DNA from: Thioalkalivibrio sp.
GTDB taxonomy: Bacteria; Pseudomonadota; Gammaproteobacteria; Ectothiorhodospirales; Ectothiorhodospiraceae
Length of the DNA: 56,296 nucleotides
Direction: 5' to 3'
Assembly: GCA_007692435.1 (NCBI GenBank)
Contig: RECA01000089.1
Span: forward strand, 1-56,296
Notes under the pieces: model-generated
Told to the model about the DNA's origin: nothing
The model's database searches: none
The model's input: only the letters and a program-made list of their open reading frames with translations
Position numbers and translations under genes: made by a program
Shown: piece by piece, positions 2,289-54,315 of the stretch
Layout: each line of letters begins with the position of its first letter
How positions within the stretch are numbered: position 1 is the stretch's first letter

Positions 2289-2648
2289 ATGACCGGACTC
2301 TTCGTGATCCTTGCCATCGTGCTGGTTGTCCTCTACTTCAACGACGCCTGGCGCAGCCTCGAACGCGCACGCAAGGTCGCGCGCGACCTGTGTGCCCGGG
2401 CCGACGTGCAGTTCCTGGACAGCAGCGTGGTGCAGAAAGGCGTCAGGGTCGTGCGCGGCGGATCCTGGGGGCTGATGCTGGCCCGGACCTACCGCTTCGA
2501 GTTCGCGACCGATGGCCACTCGAGGCATTCGGGCGAGATCACGCTGCGGGGACGCCGGGTGCGCGTGGTCAGCATGGATCTGCCCGAGGGGGGGCGGGTG
2601 CTCGACGGGGAGACACCGGCACGGGATCCCGGGGAGTCGACACGGTGA
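2289..2648 (+). CDS. DUF3301 small membrane-anchored protein
   Basis: A 119-residue protein matching the DUF3301 pattern: one N-terminal hydrophobic segment (MTGLFVILAIVLVVLYFND), then a short basic domain with YRFEFATDGHSRHSGEITL. Function is unknown; the family is common in gammaproteobacteria. The TGA stop overlaps the GTG start of oxyR as GTGA (2645-2648), so translation of the two is very probably coupled. The weakly conserved last 20 residues suggest the C-terminus is not critical. Confidence 0.75.
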   Translation: MTGLFVILAIVLVVLYFNDAWRSLERARKVARDLCARADVQFLDSSVVQKGVRVVRGGSWGLMLARTYRFEFATDGHSRHSGEITLRGRRVRVVSMDLPEGGRVLDGETPARDPGESTR

Positions 2649-3622
2649 CGCTGAACGAGCTTCGATACGTGGCGGCGGTGGCCCGCGAACGGCACTTCGG
2701 CCGGGCGGCGGATGCCTGCCACATCAGCCAGCCTTCGCTGTCGGTGGCGGTGCGCAAGCTCGAGGACGAGCTCGGCGTGACCCTGTTCGAGCGGGGGCAC
2801 GGCGAGGTGACGCTGACCCCGGCCGGCGAGGGCCTGGTCCGTCAGGCGCGCAGGATCCTGGACGAGGTCGGCGTGCTTCGGGAGATGGCCACGCAGCAGC
2901 AGGACCAGCTCTCCGGTCCGTTGCGGCTCGGCGCGATCTACACCATCGCGCCCTACCTGCTGCCCGAGCTGATCCCGGTGCTGCACGAAGACGCGCCGAA
3001 CATGCCGCTGGTGATCGAGGAGAACTTCACCGCGCGCCTGCGCGACCGGCTGAAGGAGGGCGAACTCGACGCGATCGTCGTGTCCCTGCCCTTCGACGAG
3101 CCCGGCGTCGTGACGCTGCCGCTGTACGACGAGCCCTTCGTGGCCGTACTGCCGGCCGCGCATCCGCTGCGTCAGGAGAAGACGCTGAACCTGGACCGCA
3201 TGGCGGATTCGACCCTGCTGCTGCTGGGTGCCGGCCACTGTTTCCGGGACCAGGTCCTGGAGCTCTGCCCGCGCTGCATGCGCACCGCGGAGGAGGCCGG
3301 CAGTACCACCCGCAACCTGCAGGGCTCGTCCCTGGAGACGATACGGCACATGGTGGCCTCTGGCGTGGGCGTGACCATCCTGCCCTGCACCGCGGCCGGT
3401 GCCGATCGCTACGCGCAGCGTCTGCTCGCGGTGCGGCGCTTCGCGGAGCCGGTCCCGAGCCGGCGCGTGGCGTTGGCGTGGCGGGCGAGCTTCCCGCGTC
3501 CGCAGGCGATCGAGGCACTGCGTCGGGCGGTGCTGGAGACCGGCCTGTCCTGCGTGCGCTTCATCCAGCCCGGGCAGCGAGACGGCCGGGTGGGCGGTAA
3601 AGGGACCGCTGCGCCAGAGTGA
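2645..3622 (+). CDS. oxyR: LysR-type peroxide sensor OxyR
   Basis: A 325-residue LysR-family regulator. An N-terminal winged HTH (residues 1-60, with HFGRAADACHISQPSLS) is followed by a substrate-binding-type domain. The stretch GHCFRDQVLELC places cysteines at residues 199 and 208, exactly the numbering and spacing of the redox disulfide of E. coli OxyR, so peroxide sensing is strongly supported. A third cysteine (211) follows closely. The start is GTG at 2645, four bases inside the end of the DUF3301 gene; upstream codons in this frame do not resemble a LysR N-terminus. Expected targets are peroxide-defence genes, perhaps including the glutathione and Msr genes of this window, but that is inference. 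Confidence 0.93.
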   Translation: MTLNELRYVAAVARERHFGRAADACHISQPSLSVAVRKLEDELGVTLFERGHGEVTLTPAGEGLVRQARRILDEVGVLREMATQQQDQLSGPLRLGAIYTIAPYLLPELIPVLHEDAPNMPLVIEENFTARLRDRLKEGELDAIVVSLPFDEPGVVTLPLYDEPFVAVLPAAHPLRQEKTLNLDRMADSTLLLLGAGHCFRDQVLELCPRCMRTAEEAGSTTRNLQGSSLETIRHMVASGVGVTILPCTAAGADRYAQRLLAVRRFAEPVPSRRVALAWRASFPRPQAIEALRRAVLETGLSCVRFIQPGQRDGRVGGKGTAAPE

Positions 3623-3675
3623 GGGTTACGGTGGGAGCAGCCTCCGGACGTGATTCCCGGCACGCTCATCGCCCT

Positions 3676-3855
3676 GTGGGAGGCGAGCCCTCTCGGCGAT
3701 CGGGCGCTTGGAGAACGGGTCGCCCAGGGGGCTGGCCTCCTACGGTGCGGATCCCGGGCCCCTGTGGGAGCGAGCCTGCTCGCGAACGCGTCCCGGGCGC
3801 GCCCGAGGCCGGGGCTTCAGCCGACGCCCATTCGCGTGCGAGGCAGGCTCCCACA
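3676..3855. repeat. REP-like composite repeat, copy A
   Basis: Two imperfect palindromes in tandem. The first (3676-3743) runs from GTGGGAGGCGAGCCCTCTCG to GGGGGCTGGCCTCCTAC. The second (3764-3855) runs from GTGGGAGCGAGCCTGCTCGC to GCGAGGCAGGCTCCCACA. The unit recurs almost unchanged and in the same orientation at 4875-5052, and its first palindrome recurs at 54201-54268. The GTGGGAGCGAGC motif resembles the REP/BIME class known from pseudomonads and relatives. It lies between the convergent oxyR and lipase genes, where it could also end transcription. Confidence 0.85.
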
Positions 3856-3908
3856 CGGCCGCTCCGGCTCTTACAGGAGGCGGGGCCTCCCGGCGATTCG
3901 GGTTGGAG

Positions 3909-4763
3909 TCACCCCGCCCGCGCGGCGATTCGCTCGAGGATTACCCTGACATCCGTTGCATCGAGGCTGTGACCCAGCGGGCTGGCGATCACGGAGGCGC
4001 GTCCGCGCAGTGCGGGGACCTGGTTCAGATCCTGGCTCCAGGCGGGGATCAGGATGTCGCCGCCCATCCGGAAACCGGTGTTGCGGACCACCGCGTCGTA
4101 GGTGATCTCCGGGTGTTCCTGCACGTTCAGCCAGCCGAGCAGATTGCCACGGTGCGGCGGCGCGAGGTCGAGCAGCAGGGCCTGCGACTGCCGGATGGCC
4201 TCGTAGTTGCTGCTGCCGAGGGCCTGGCGCGTGAGGATCTGGCGGAAGGGCCCGAACATGCCGCCGCTGTTTGTCGCCTGCAATGCCTGCAGCGCACGCT
4301 CGGTACCCAGGTGCGGACTGGCGATCGTGATCAGATGCTCGACGGCCCCCTGGCCACCGCGGACCAGCGCCAGGCGTGCGACCACGCCGCCGGCGGAGTG
4401 CCCGACCAGGGTAATCGGCTCGTCGGGGTGGCGCTGCTCTGCCGCGCGGCGCATCGCCGTCAGCCAGTCGGCCTGCAGGGCCAGCGGGGCGGTGGCCGGC
4501 AGGTTCACGGTGTAGACCGTGCGTTCGCCGGTGCCGGCGTCCCCGACGAGGCGTACCCGGCCATCAGGCGCGGGGCGCCAGTTGCCGCCGTAATGCCAGC
4601 CCCCGGCATCCAGGGCATCGACCACGCCGGCCCGGTGAAAGCCCTGCCCGTCACCGAGATAGCCGTGTACCAGCACCATCACGGAGGCCGGGGCCGCAGG
4701 GGCCCAGAGCAACAGCACCATCAGCAGGGAGGCCAGCAGGCCGGTCTTCGCATGTCTCTTCAT
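3909..4763 (-). CDS. Secreted alpha/beta-hydrolase (lipase/esterase)
   Basis: A 284-residue alpha/beta-hydrolase with an N-terminal signal peptide (KRHAKTGLLASLLMVLLLW, cleavage probably after PASA-type residues near 27), so it acts in the periplasm or outside the cell. VLVHGYLGDG near residue 31 forms the oxyanion-hole strand. The nucleophile elbow is GHSAGG with Ser123, and the C-terminal GHSLDATD supplies the catalytic His265. LITIASPHLGT is typical of triacylglycerol-lipase-type enzymes that release acyl esters. No lipase chaperone gene is adjacent. It stands alone between two direct copies of a REP-like composite, which makes it a candidate for gain or loss as a unit. Confidence 0.85.
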   Translation of the reverse strand: MKRHAKTGLLASLLMVLLLWAPAAPASVMVLVHGYLGDGQGFHRAGVVDALDAGGWHYGGNWRPAPDGRVRLVGDAGTGERTVYTVNLPATAPLALQADWLTAMRRAAEQRHPDEPITLVGHSAGGVVARLALVRGGQGAVEHLITIASPHLGTERALQALQATNSGGMFGPFRQILTRQALGSSNYEAIRQSQALLLDLAPPHRGNLLGWLNVQEHPEITYDAVVRNTGFRMGGDILIPAWSQDLNQVPALRGRASVIASPLGHSLDATDVRVILERIAARAG

Positions 4764-4834
4764 GATTCGGTTCCTTGTTCCGTTCGGGCGTGCCGGGGGG
4801 GGCGCTGATGTGCCCGGGGCGCGCGATGACCCCT

Positions 4835-4840
4835 ATTATA
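4835..4840 (-). promoter_or_regulatory. Possible -10 box for the lipase gene
   Basis: On the minus strand this reads TATAAT within an AT-rich island (4833-4860) that stands out from its GC-rich surroundings, about 70 bases upstream of the lipase start. No good -35 hexamer is visible at 16-18 bp, so the call rests on the -10 match and the base composition. Confidence 0.4.
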
Positions 4841-4874
4841 TTAGAAAGCGCGAATATTTGGCTGCGAAGCCCTC

Positions 4875-5052
4875 GTGGGAGGCGAGCCCTCTCGGCGATC
4901 CGGCGCCGGGGCATGTCGCCCAGGGGGCTGGCCTCCTACGGTGCGGATCCCGGGCCCCTGTGGGAGCGAGCCTGCTCGCGAACGCGTCCCGGGCGCGTCC
5001 GAGGCCGGGGGCTTCAGCCGACGCCCATTCGCGTGCGCGGCACGCTCCCACA
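4875..5052. repeat. REP-like composite repeat, copy B
   Basis: Second copy of the two-palindrome composite seen at 3676-3855, in the same orientation: first palindrome 4875-4939, second palindrome 4960-5052. Most of the stretch CTACGGTGCGGATCCCGGGC to the CGCGTCCCGGGCGCG core is identical to copy A. It fills most of the 338-bp gap between the divergent lipase and ABC-F genes and ends only 49 bp before the ABC-F start, so it may lie inside that gene's promoter region. Confidence 0.85.
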
Positions 5053-5101
5053 CGGCCGCCGCGGGCATCGCGCGCGGGCTTCACGTTACACTTGCGCGCC
5101 T

Positions 5102-7003
5102 ATGATCCGTTTCGAGAACGTGGAACTGCGTCGCGGTGGCCAGGCGCTGGTCCGCAATGCCTCCTTTGCGATCCATCCCGGCTGGCGCGTCGGCCTGACC
5201 GGCGCCAACGGTAGCGGAAAGAGCACGCTGCTGGCGGCCTTGCGTGGCGAGATGGTGCCGGATGCCGGCACCATCGACTGGCCCCGGGGCTGGGTGCTGG
5301 CGCACCTGCCGCAGGAGGTGGCGGCCAGCCCCCGGAAGGCGGTGGACTACGTGCTGGATGGCGACCGGGCCCTGCGGGAGCTTCAGGCGCGGCTCGAGCG
5401 GACCGAGGACGGCGAAGAGCGCGGGCACCTCTACGCCGAGATCGACGCGATCGACGGCTGGAGCGCTGATGCGCGTGCCCGGCAGTTGCTGGCCGGCCTC
5501 GGCTTCGAGCCGTCGGACCCGGATCGGGCGGTGTCGGAGTTCTCCGGCGGCTGGCGCATGCGCCTGGGGCTGGCCCGCACCCTGATGACGCGCTCGGACC
5601 TCCTGCTGCTGGACGAGCCCACCAACCACCTCGACTTCGAGACCGTGCTGTGGCTCGAGGACTGGCTCCGGCGCTATCCGGGCACGCTGATCGTGATCGC
5701 CCACGACCGGCGCTTCCTGGATGCGGTGGTCACGCACGTCGCGCACATCGAGCACCGGCAGGTGCAATTGTTCACCGGCAGCTACAGTGCCGCGGAGCGC
5801 CGCCGGGCCGAGATCCTCGCGCAGACCGAGGCCGCGGCGGCACGCGTCGCGCAGGAACGCGCCCACCTCGAACGCTTCGTCGCGCGCTTTCGGGCGAAGG
5901 CGACCAAGGCCCGGCAGGCGCAGAGCCGCCTGAAGCGCCTGGAGAAGCTGGACGAGATCGCGGTGCTGCGCGCGGCCCGGCCGATGCACCTGAAGATTCC
6001 GGCACCGGAACGCCTGCCCGACCCCCTGCTTCGCCTGGACCACGCCAGCGTCGTCACGGAGGGGAAGACCCGCCTGCATCCCGCCACGCTGCGGCTGCGG
6101 CCGGACGATCGCATCGGCATCCTGGGGCCGAACGGCGCCGGCAAGTCGACGCTGCTGTCGGTGCTGGCCGGCCTGCTGCCGCTGAGCGGGGGCGAGCGCG
6201 AGGTGGAGCCCGGCCTGGTGGTCGGTTACTTCGCGCAGCATCAGCGCGAGCAGCTGGACGAGGCCGCGAGCCCGCTGCTGCACCTGCAGCGGCTGGAGGT
6301 GGCGATGACCGAGCAGGAACTGCGCAACCTGCTCGGCGGCTTCGGCTTCGCGGGCACGCGCGCCGACATGCCCGTGGCCGGGCTCTCCGGTGGCGAGCGG
6401 GTCCGGCTGGTGCTCGCGATGCTGGTCTGCCAGGCTCCGGCGGTGCTGTTGCTCGACGAGCCCACGAACCACCTCGATCTGGACATGCGCGAGGCCCTGA
6501 CGGAGGCGCTGGAGGATTACGCGGGGGCGCTGGTGGTGGTCTCGCACGATCGCGACCTGCTGACCCGCGTCTGCGACCGCTTCTGGCGCGTGCGCGAGGG
6601 CCGGGTCGAGGAGTACGAGGGGGACCTCGACGACTACGCCCGTGAACTGACCCGGGTGCGCGCTCAGGCGACCGAGGCACCGCGCGGCGACTCAAGTGCC
6701 CCCGCCGCGCCGGAGCGCGAGGGCGGCCGCGAGCGGCGGCAGCAGGCCGCCCGCCAGCGCCAGTCCCTGAAGCCGCTGCGCCGGGCCGCGGAGCGCGAGG
6801 AGGCGCGCTGTTCCCGCCTGCAGGAGGAACTCGAAGCGGTGGAGACGGCGATGGCGAATCCGGAGTTGTACGACGGGGTGGATGGCGGCCAGCTGGAGGT
6901 CCTGCTGCAGCGCCAGGGGCGGCTGCGTCAGGAACTCGAGGAGGCCGAGGCCGCCTGGATGCAGGCGCTGGAGGCCCTGGAAGGCGCGACCGCCCGACTG
7001 TGA
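5102..7003 (+). CDS. ABC-F ATPase (YheS-like)
   Basis: A 633-residue soluble protein with two ABC ATPase domains and no membrane segments, as in the ABC-F family that acts on ribosomes. First domain: Walker A GANGSGKST at 34-42, signature FSGGWRMRLGLA, Walker B LLLLDEPTNHLD. An arginine/alanine-rich linker follows (about 230-290). Second domain: GPNGAGKST, LSGGERVRLVLA, VLLLDEPTNHLD. A charged coiled-coil tail (about 520-630) is typical of YheS/Uup-like members. The start is ATG at 5102, immediately before the first strand of the ABC domain; the upstream open frame is repeat DNA. There is no Shine-Dalgarno sequence before this ATG. Between the subfamilies, YheS fits the long C-terminal arm better than Uup. 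Confidence 0.9.
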   Translation: MIRFENVELRRGGQALVRNASFAIHPGWRVGLTGANGSGKSTLLAALRGEMVPDAGTIDWPRGWVLAHLPQEVAASPRKAVDYVLDGDRALRELQARLERTEDGEERGHLYAEIDAIDGWSADARARQLLAGLGFEPSDPDRAVSEFSGGWRMRLGLARTLMTRSDLLLLDEPTNHLDFETVLWLEDWLRRYPGTLIVIAHDRRFLDAVVTHVAHIEHRQVQLFTGSYSAAERRRAEILAQTEAAAARVAQERAHLERFVARFRAKATKARQAQSRLKRLEKLDEIAVLRAARPMHLKIPAPERLPDPLLRLDHASVVTEGKTRLHPATLRLRPDDRIGILGPNGAGKSTLLSVLAGLLPLSGGEREVEPGLVVGYFAQHQREQLDEAASPLLHLQRLEVAMTEQELRNLLGGFGFAGTRADMPVAGLSGGERVRLVLAMLVCQAPAVLLLDEPTNHLDLDMREALTEALEDYAGALVVVSHDRDLLTRVCDRFWRVREGRVEEYEGDLDDYARELTRVRAQATEAPRGDSSAPAAPEREGGRERRQQAARQRQSLKPLRRAAEREEARCSRLQEELEAVETAMANPELYDGVDGGQLEVLLQRQGRLRQELEEAEAAWMQALEALEGATARL

Positions 7004-54200: not shown

Positions 54201-54268
54201 GTAGGAGGCGAGCCCTCTCGGCGATCGGGCGCTTGGGGAACGGGTCGCCCAGGGGGCTGGCCTCCTAC
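54201..54268. repeat. REP-like palindrome, copy C
   Basis: A single palindrome, GTAGGAGGCGAGCCCTCTCG to GGGGGCTGGCCTCCTAC, nearly identical to the first palindrome of the composites at 3676 and 4875; the second palindrome is absent. It follows folK by 91 bp and lies 47 bp upstream of the NtrC-type site, so it separates folK from the glnK control region. Confidence 0.85.
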
Positions 54269-54315
54269 GGTGCTCGCCCCGGCCCCTGTGATTTCAATCC
54301 CCTCATTGCCGGTTA

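Follow-up and report, generated by a model that had tools for sequence, protein, structure and literature searches.

Two mosaic REPIN clusters on either side of a lipase-like gene in a Thioalkalivibrio genome

A single lipase-like gene of Thioalkalivibrio sp. lies between two repeat composites that are in direct orientation and, judging from their mosaic alignment, have probably exchanged sequence. The composites are found at positions 3676-3855 and 4875-5052 of the stretch of DNA that we analysed (56,296 nucleotides of contig RECA01000089.1, hereafter the window), and they are ordinary REPIN clusters of an already known and widespread family. The explanation that we favour, and consider probable, is that both spacers flanking a conserved gene were entered by such clusters, which afterwards exchanged sequence. 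A previous sequence-only reading of the window had described REP-like composites at these positions, in the same orientation and with only the lipase between them. Our analysis confirms this description, including the REP-type nature of the repeats, which is seen in their inverted pairs, hairpin folds and many copies.

Each composite is built of two consecutive REPINs (inverted REP pairs), REPIN A followed by REPIN B. In copy 1, REPIN A (3676..3743, forward strand) is an inverted pair of GTGGGAGGCGAGCC-type REPs with an 18-nt loop allele, recognized by motif scan, hairpin fold (z -3.45) and loop alleles, and REPIN B (3764..3855, forward strand) joins a GTGGGAGCGAGCCTGCTCGCGAA-type REP to a degenerate inverted partner (motif scan, fold z -3.26). 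The same methods show that REPIN A of copy 2 (4875..4939, forward strand, fold z -4.38) carries a 15-nt loop allele unlike that of copy 1, and that REPIN B of copy 2 (4960..5052, forward strand, motif scan and fold z -3.81) is 95% identical to REPIN B of copy 1. The motif scan (4 mismatches) detected the inverted partner of REP A in both copies; the inverted partner of REP B was not listed by the scan and was recognized by eye and in the fold. As single-stranded DNA, all four units fold better than the shuffle mean (z -3.26 to -4.38); for each unit, no more than 1 of 200 shuffles folded as well. Both copies are extragenic: copy 1 occupies the spacer between the convergent oxyR and lipase genes, and copy 2 the spacer between the divergent lipase and ABC-F genes, where it ends 49 bp before the ABC-F start. 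By its position between convergent genes, the left REPIN cluster could serve as a terminator.

The first of the three genes (2645..3622, forward strand) encodes an oxyR-like LysR-family regulator with the Pfam domains HTH_1 and LysR_substrate, for which the best NCBIfam model is OxyR (259.4 bits, below the cut-off of 329). The enclosed gene (3909..4763, reverse strand) encodes a lipase-like alpha/beta hydrolase that matches the Pfam models PGAP1-like, Abhydrolase_1, Abhydrolase_6 and DUF676 above their cut-offs; a GHSAGG motif and a signal-peptide-like N-terminus were both recognized by eye. It gave no NCBIfam match and no PDB sequence match at E 0.01. The term lipase is used here as a family-level reading, and the description of the protein as secreted is based on the signal-like N-terminus read by eye. 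Upstream of the gene, an AT-rich promoter-like element reading TTTCTAATATAAT on the lipase strand (4834..4847, reverse strand) was noted by eye, and similar letters are visible upstream of the lipase in the relatives inspected and beside the copy of the relative G019. The third gene (5102..7003, forward strand) encodes an ABC-F family ATPase that matches NCBIfam NF000355 with 452.1 bits (cut-off 380); its best-scoring model, PRK10636, reaches 659.3 bits, below the cut-off of 917. A distant paralogue of the lipase (42%) is present on contig C66 of the window's genome. A plasmid-borne block was considered and rejected, as window positions 3600-5110 had no match among the 72,556 plasmid records of one collection.

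To place the locus in its genus, we searched 30 Thioalkalivibrio genomes, one per species and with the window's own genome (G000) included, of which 14 belong to the window's subclade and 16 to a sister subclade. The lipase is located between oxyR and ABC-F in 11 of the 14 genomes of the window's subclade. In eight of them (G000, G002, G003, G004, G018, G020, G025 and G026) the three genes share one contig, oxyR of G018 being partial; the two sides of the slot are on two contigs in G023, the contig ends within the lipase in G024, and G021 presents the lipase start and its upstream DNA only. One of the 14 genomes, G019, has a slot without the lipase. The remaining two assemblies are incomplete at the slot and were counted neither as lipase present nor as absent. 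The contig of G017 ends 285 bp past oxyR and this genome has no close ABC-F; the ABC-F contig of G027 starts 150 bp before the gene, within the end of a REPIN B that is close to ABC-F as in the window, and neither a lipase above the paralogue level nor an oxyR at E 1e-60 was detected in this genome.

A different gene fills the slot in all 16 genomes of the sister subclade. Its protein was found in 16 of 16 sister loci and in none of the four lipase-subclade loci tested, and genome-wide, at the threshold of E 1e-60 at which the oxyR and GGDEF searches were cut, it was confined to those 16 genomes, the other 14 giving no match. The one copy of the 16 that was scanned, from G005, contains a GGDEF domain. 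Lipase matches (E 0.001) are present in nine of the 16 sister genomes, 35-42% identical and never on the contig of the slot, and in none of the other seven. The lipase and the GGDEF-type gene both run opposite to ABC-F (window 3622-5102; for example L059 3632-4552), and no genome has both of them in the slot.

REP sequences are unevenly placed in these loci. In G026, the spacer between lipase and oxyR contains one REP A core and three REP C cores, and further REP-like arms were seen by eye before ABC-F; in G020 and G018, REP C cores precede ABC-F. No REP core (up to 4 mismatches) was present on the stretches of G002, G003, G004, G021, G023, G024 and G025, which for G021 and G024 applies to the ABC-F side. 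Genomes therefore vary in the REPINs of both spacers, but the lipase is kept in most of them. The proposal that the lipase is strain-variable is not supported in general, given that 11 of 14 genomes carry it in the slot. The double composite was found in the window's genome only and in no other slot.

The lipase-free slot belongs to the MAG CSSed11_1 (G019), which is incomplete (80% complete, 340 contigs). Its oxyR/ABC-F spacer measures 153 bp including the oxyR stop codon and contains one REPIN B, with a best match to copy 1 of 86% over 59 bases; REPIN A is absent from this spacer. The spacer opens as the DNA after oxyR does in the window, and the 44 bases at its other end are identical to those preceding the ABC-F start of the window. 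ABC-F of G019 (L044) has one in-frame TAG within the aligned region. The lipase of G019, 85% identical as protein and 84% as DNA, is on another contig of 6.2 kb that opens within the 3' part of a tmRNA gene. This part is 82-97% identical to the tmRNA loci of relatives, and the partial tmRNA has an Rfam score of 30.1 bits, below the cut-off of 47; the other flank of the lipase is DNA without a match among the loci compared. The likeness between G019 and G026 starts about 105 bp upstream of the lipase and stops 6 bp after the gene. No REP A, B or C core (up to 4 mismatches) is present on the lipase contig, and a second, att-like tmRNA end was sought on it and not found. The contig has a G+C content of 0.63 (junction contig 0.69), and G002 and G003 have the tmRNA loci most similar to its tmRNA part, indicating that mis-binning is possible. 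Since G019 keeps a lipase of the same lineage beside tmRNA, the gene would have been relocated, by excision and re-entry, or lost and regained from a near relative, and not simply lost. The earlier expectation that genomes with one repeat and no lipase would be found is thus borne out at the slot of G019, with its one REPIN B, but not for the genome, which keeps the lipase beside tmRNA. Likewise, comparing the oxyR to ABC-F spacing among relatives yielded one lipase-free slot, against 11 of 14 genomes that carry the lipase there.

The empty slot could itself be an assembly error, in which two repeat copies were collapsed and the lipase skipped. G019 is an incomplete MAG of many contigs, and near-identical direct repeats are prone to such errors. 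However, a skipped lipase should sit on a short, repeat-bounded contig, and the actual 6.2-kb contig has a tmRNA flank and no REP core. We regard this reading as unlikely.

We then consider the phylogenetic placement of the G019 genes. The lipase tree, built from 11 of the 12 genomes in which some lipase sequence is present (G021, with the gene start only, was left out; G023 and G024 are partial), groups G019 with the window and G026 at 99/98. The ABC-F tree, which includes three of the 16 sister-subclade genomes, unites G000, G019, G026 and G027 at 100/99, the order inside the four not being fixed. The oxyR tree, which includes two sister-subclade genomes, joins G019 to G017 and G021; the support of 89/97 falls short of the starred level. 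As the grouping of the lipase agrees with the ABC-F tree, we rejected deep horizontal transfer as the origin of the lipase in G019.

These data also bear on the idea that the lipase is an excisable cassette, which a crossover between the direct repeats pops out as a circle that is either lost or re-enters elsewhere, making its presence strain-variable. As predicted by this idea, G019 combines an empty slot holding one REPIN with a same-lineage lipase (99/98) at another site, accompanied by about 105 bp of upstream DNA, and the two copies in the window look recombined. It is hard to reconcile with the lack of any REP A, B or C core (up to 4 mismatches) on the G019 lipase contig and with the fact that 11 of 14 subclade genomes carry the lipase in the slot; moreover, the REPIN B of G019 (86% over 59 bases, without REPIN A) is no proof of an ancestral second copy. 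Taken together, an excisable cassette seems quite unlikely to us.

The tmRNA tree, based on the last 262 nt, groups the window's genome with G020 and G025 (96/92), contrary to the ABC-F tree, and does not place G019. The disagreement between the two trees may reflect exchange at the tmRNA locus. The DNA beyond tmRNA differs among L179 (the window's genome), L181 (G026) and L112 (G019), as at an island hot spot. Past tmRNA, G019 and G026 share about 80 bp, G019 and the window's genome share none, and in G019 the lipase is located there.

The repeat family is abundant in the 2.71-Mb, 244-contig genome of the window, with at least 73 matches in at least 40 clusters, both counts being lower bounds because 40 of 177 first-look candidates were scored. 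With up to 27 candidates scored per genome, it was matched in 28 of the 30 genomes of the genus, including that of the window. Ten of the 40 clusters start less than 100 bp from a contig start. REP B cores occur at 16 places in the genome (control 0) and have the heads GTGG or GTAG in 11 of the 16 listed cores and GCGG, GCAG or GGGT in the other five; GTGG/GTAG heads are also found in nearly all listed REPIN A copies. Another REPIN A of the same family is located at window 54201-54290. The genome has four Y1_Tnp genes, all of which match the REP-associated tyrosine transposase model NF047646, two with scores of 199.8 and 81.8 bits (cut-off 80) and the others with 79.1 and 66.8 bits. REP A, B and C cores (up to 4 mismatches) are absent from the transposase contigs C172, which measures 3.2 kb and ends near the gene, and C233; on transposase contig C29 the nearest REP cores are about 5 kb off. 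The gene scoring 199.8 bits is found at 10019-10552 of L128 (G000:C233), a 10.7-kb contig without REP A, B or C cores.

We compared the two composites with each other and with further copies. The two are 92.8% identical over 181 columns (BLAST, E 3e-71). Of the 12 difference events, eight are in columns 1-45 of the 182-column alignment (permutation p 0.00175, for a 45-column cut that was picked after the alignment had been seen), and the longest clean run between the copies covers 83 columns (p 0.0066). The composites had been called near-identical, which is true of the right block (134/138 columns identical) and not of the left block (34/43). Among the 17 loops compared, which are not all matches, the 18-nt loop of copy 1 is nearest to the loop at window 54201 (17/18) and the 15-nt loop of copy 2 to one on contig C205 (15/16), the two loops agreeing with each other at 9/18. 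REPIN B presents the opposite profile: copies 1 and 2 are 95% identical, and neither exceeds 85% identity to the 14 others compared (eight from this genome and six from relatives), this comparison covering the copies on 17 stretches and, again, not all matches.

When the right-hand 112 bases were used as a query against the genome, 18 matches were listed, of which the two studied copies have 100 and 96% identity and the remaining 16 have 73-87%, except for a 32-base fragment at 91%; 40 of 61 candidates were scored in this search, and the two copies are the best among the matches listed. A 28-base spacer stretch (up to 3 mismatches) occurs within the assembly only in the two studied copies. The right blocks resemble each other and differ from the remaining copies of the comparison, a likeness that goes beyond chance. 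The simplest reading of the mosaic is that the right part was exchanged between the two copies; instead of diverging as if never recombining, the pair looks recombined. A similar picture may arise from a third copy with the same haplotype, which may be unassembled since the assembly is broken at these repeats, or could arise from a plain local duplication, after which one loop was replaced from another copy.

It could also be argued that the composites inserted independently, or arose by a simple duplication, with no recombination between them. Under uniform placement of 40 clusters, 0.6 pairs with a gap of up to 1050 bp are expected and one is seen, and the expectation rises above 0.6 if there are more than 40 clusters. 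At least 0.6 such close pairs are thus expected by chance, indicating that the bracketing of the gene alone is not beyond chance. In addition, the different REPIN A loop alleles point to separate histories of the left parts, and REPs in one or both spacers of G026, G020 and G018 suggest that both spacers accept insertions. Nevertheless, the near identity of the right blocks (134/138) and a spacer haplotype unique to them within the assembly make a history without recombination decidedly improbable. That the slot is an exchange site, where a REPIN-REPIN crossover cut out the lipase with its upstream region for re-entry beside tmRNA, so that REPINs shuttle a host gene, is in our view highly improbable.

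According to the explanation that we favour, REPINs would have arrived in each spacer independently. Later, homologous exchange (gene conversion), for which the short distance between the copies is favourable, would have replaced the right-hand part in one of them by that of the other. The same homology would allow deletion of the lipase by crossover. In the G019 lineage, the lipase would have left the slot while one REPIN B stayed, and the lipase would now sit beside tmRNA. REP-mediated rearrangement at the locus is possible, and lipase deletion would be a possibility of the arrangement and not its function, the gene being usually kept. What speaks against this explanation is the absence of these REP cores from the vicinity of all four transposase genes.

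Published accounts of REPINs or REP families in Thioalkalivibrio already exist (PMC3116915, PMC3733652 and PMC2817692). The text of Bertels & Rainey 2011 (PMC3116915) describes REPINs, or REP doublets, as inverted REPs able to form a long hairpin, present in many copies and in tandem clusters; clusters of two unrelated REPINs are described and Thioalkalivibrio HL-EbGR7 is also treated. Inverted pairs, hairpins, many copies and the clustering of unlike REPINs are common to that text and our locus. Here, as opposed to what that text presents, a composite of two different REPINs recurs in the genome and its relatives, two composites flank one gene, and no transposase gene was found with these REPs nearby. 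The text of Di Nocera 2013 (PMC3733652) places GTAG-1 elements in Thioalkalivibrio sp. K90mix. GTGG/GTAG-headed palindromes are shared with the GTAG-type REPs of that text, from which our locus differs in that the REPIN A core is distinct from that of REPIN B. From the motif, and with that text as our guide, our reading is that REPIN B is of the Pseudomonas-like GTAG type.

In the literature searched by listing, no published description of this locus was found, which is no proof of absence. In Neisseria meningitidis, deletion of porA by recombination between REP clusters was reportedly observed by van der Ende in 1999. Our locus is like that of porA in having REP-type clusters around a gene, able to recombine and delete it; here, however, the deletion would be deduced from a single relative whose slot is empty and whose lipase is at another site.

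At present, our findings are a modest addition to the knowledge of REPINs and describe a largely ordinary arrangement of a known kind of element. On a small scale, the locus offers a test in nature of whether REPINs that lie next to each other exchange sequence and can take out or move the enclosed gene, the test material being the mosaic pair of one genome and, in a relative, the empty slot with one REPIN. If this is true and confirmed by genomes of the same species, REPINs would reshape gene content, beyond copying themselves.
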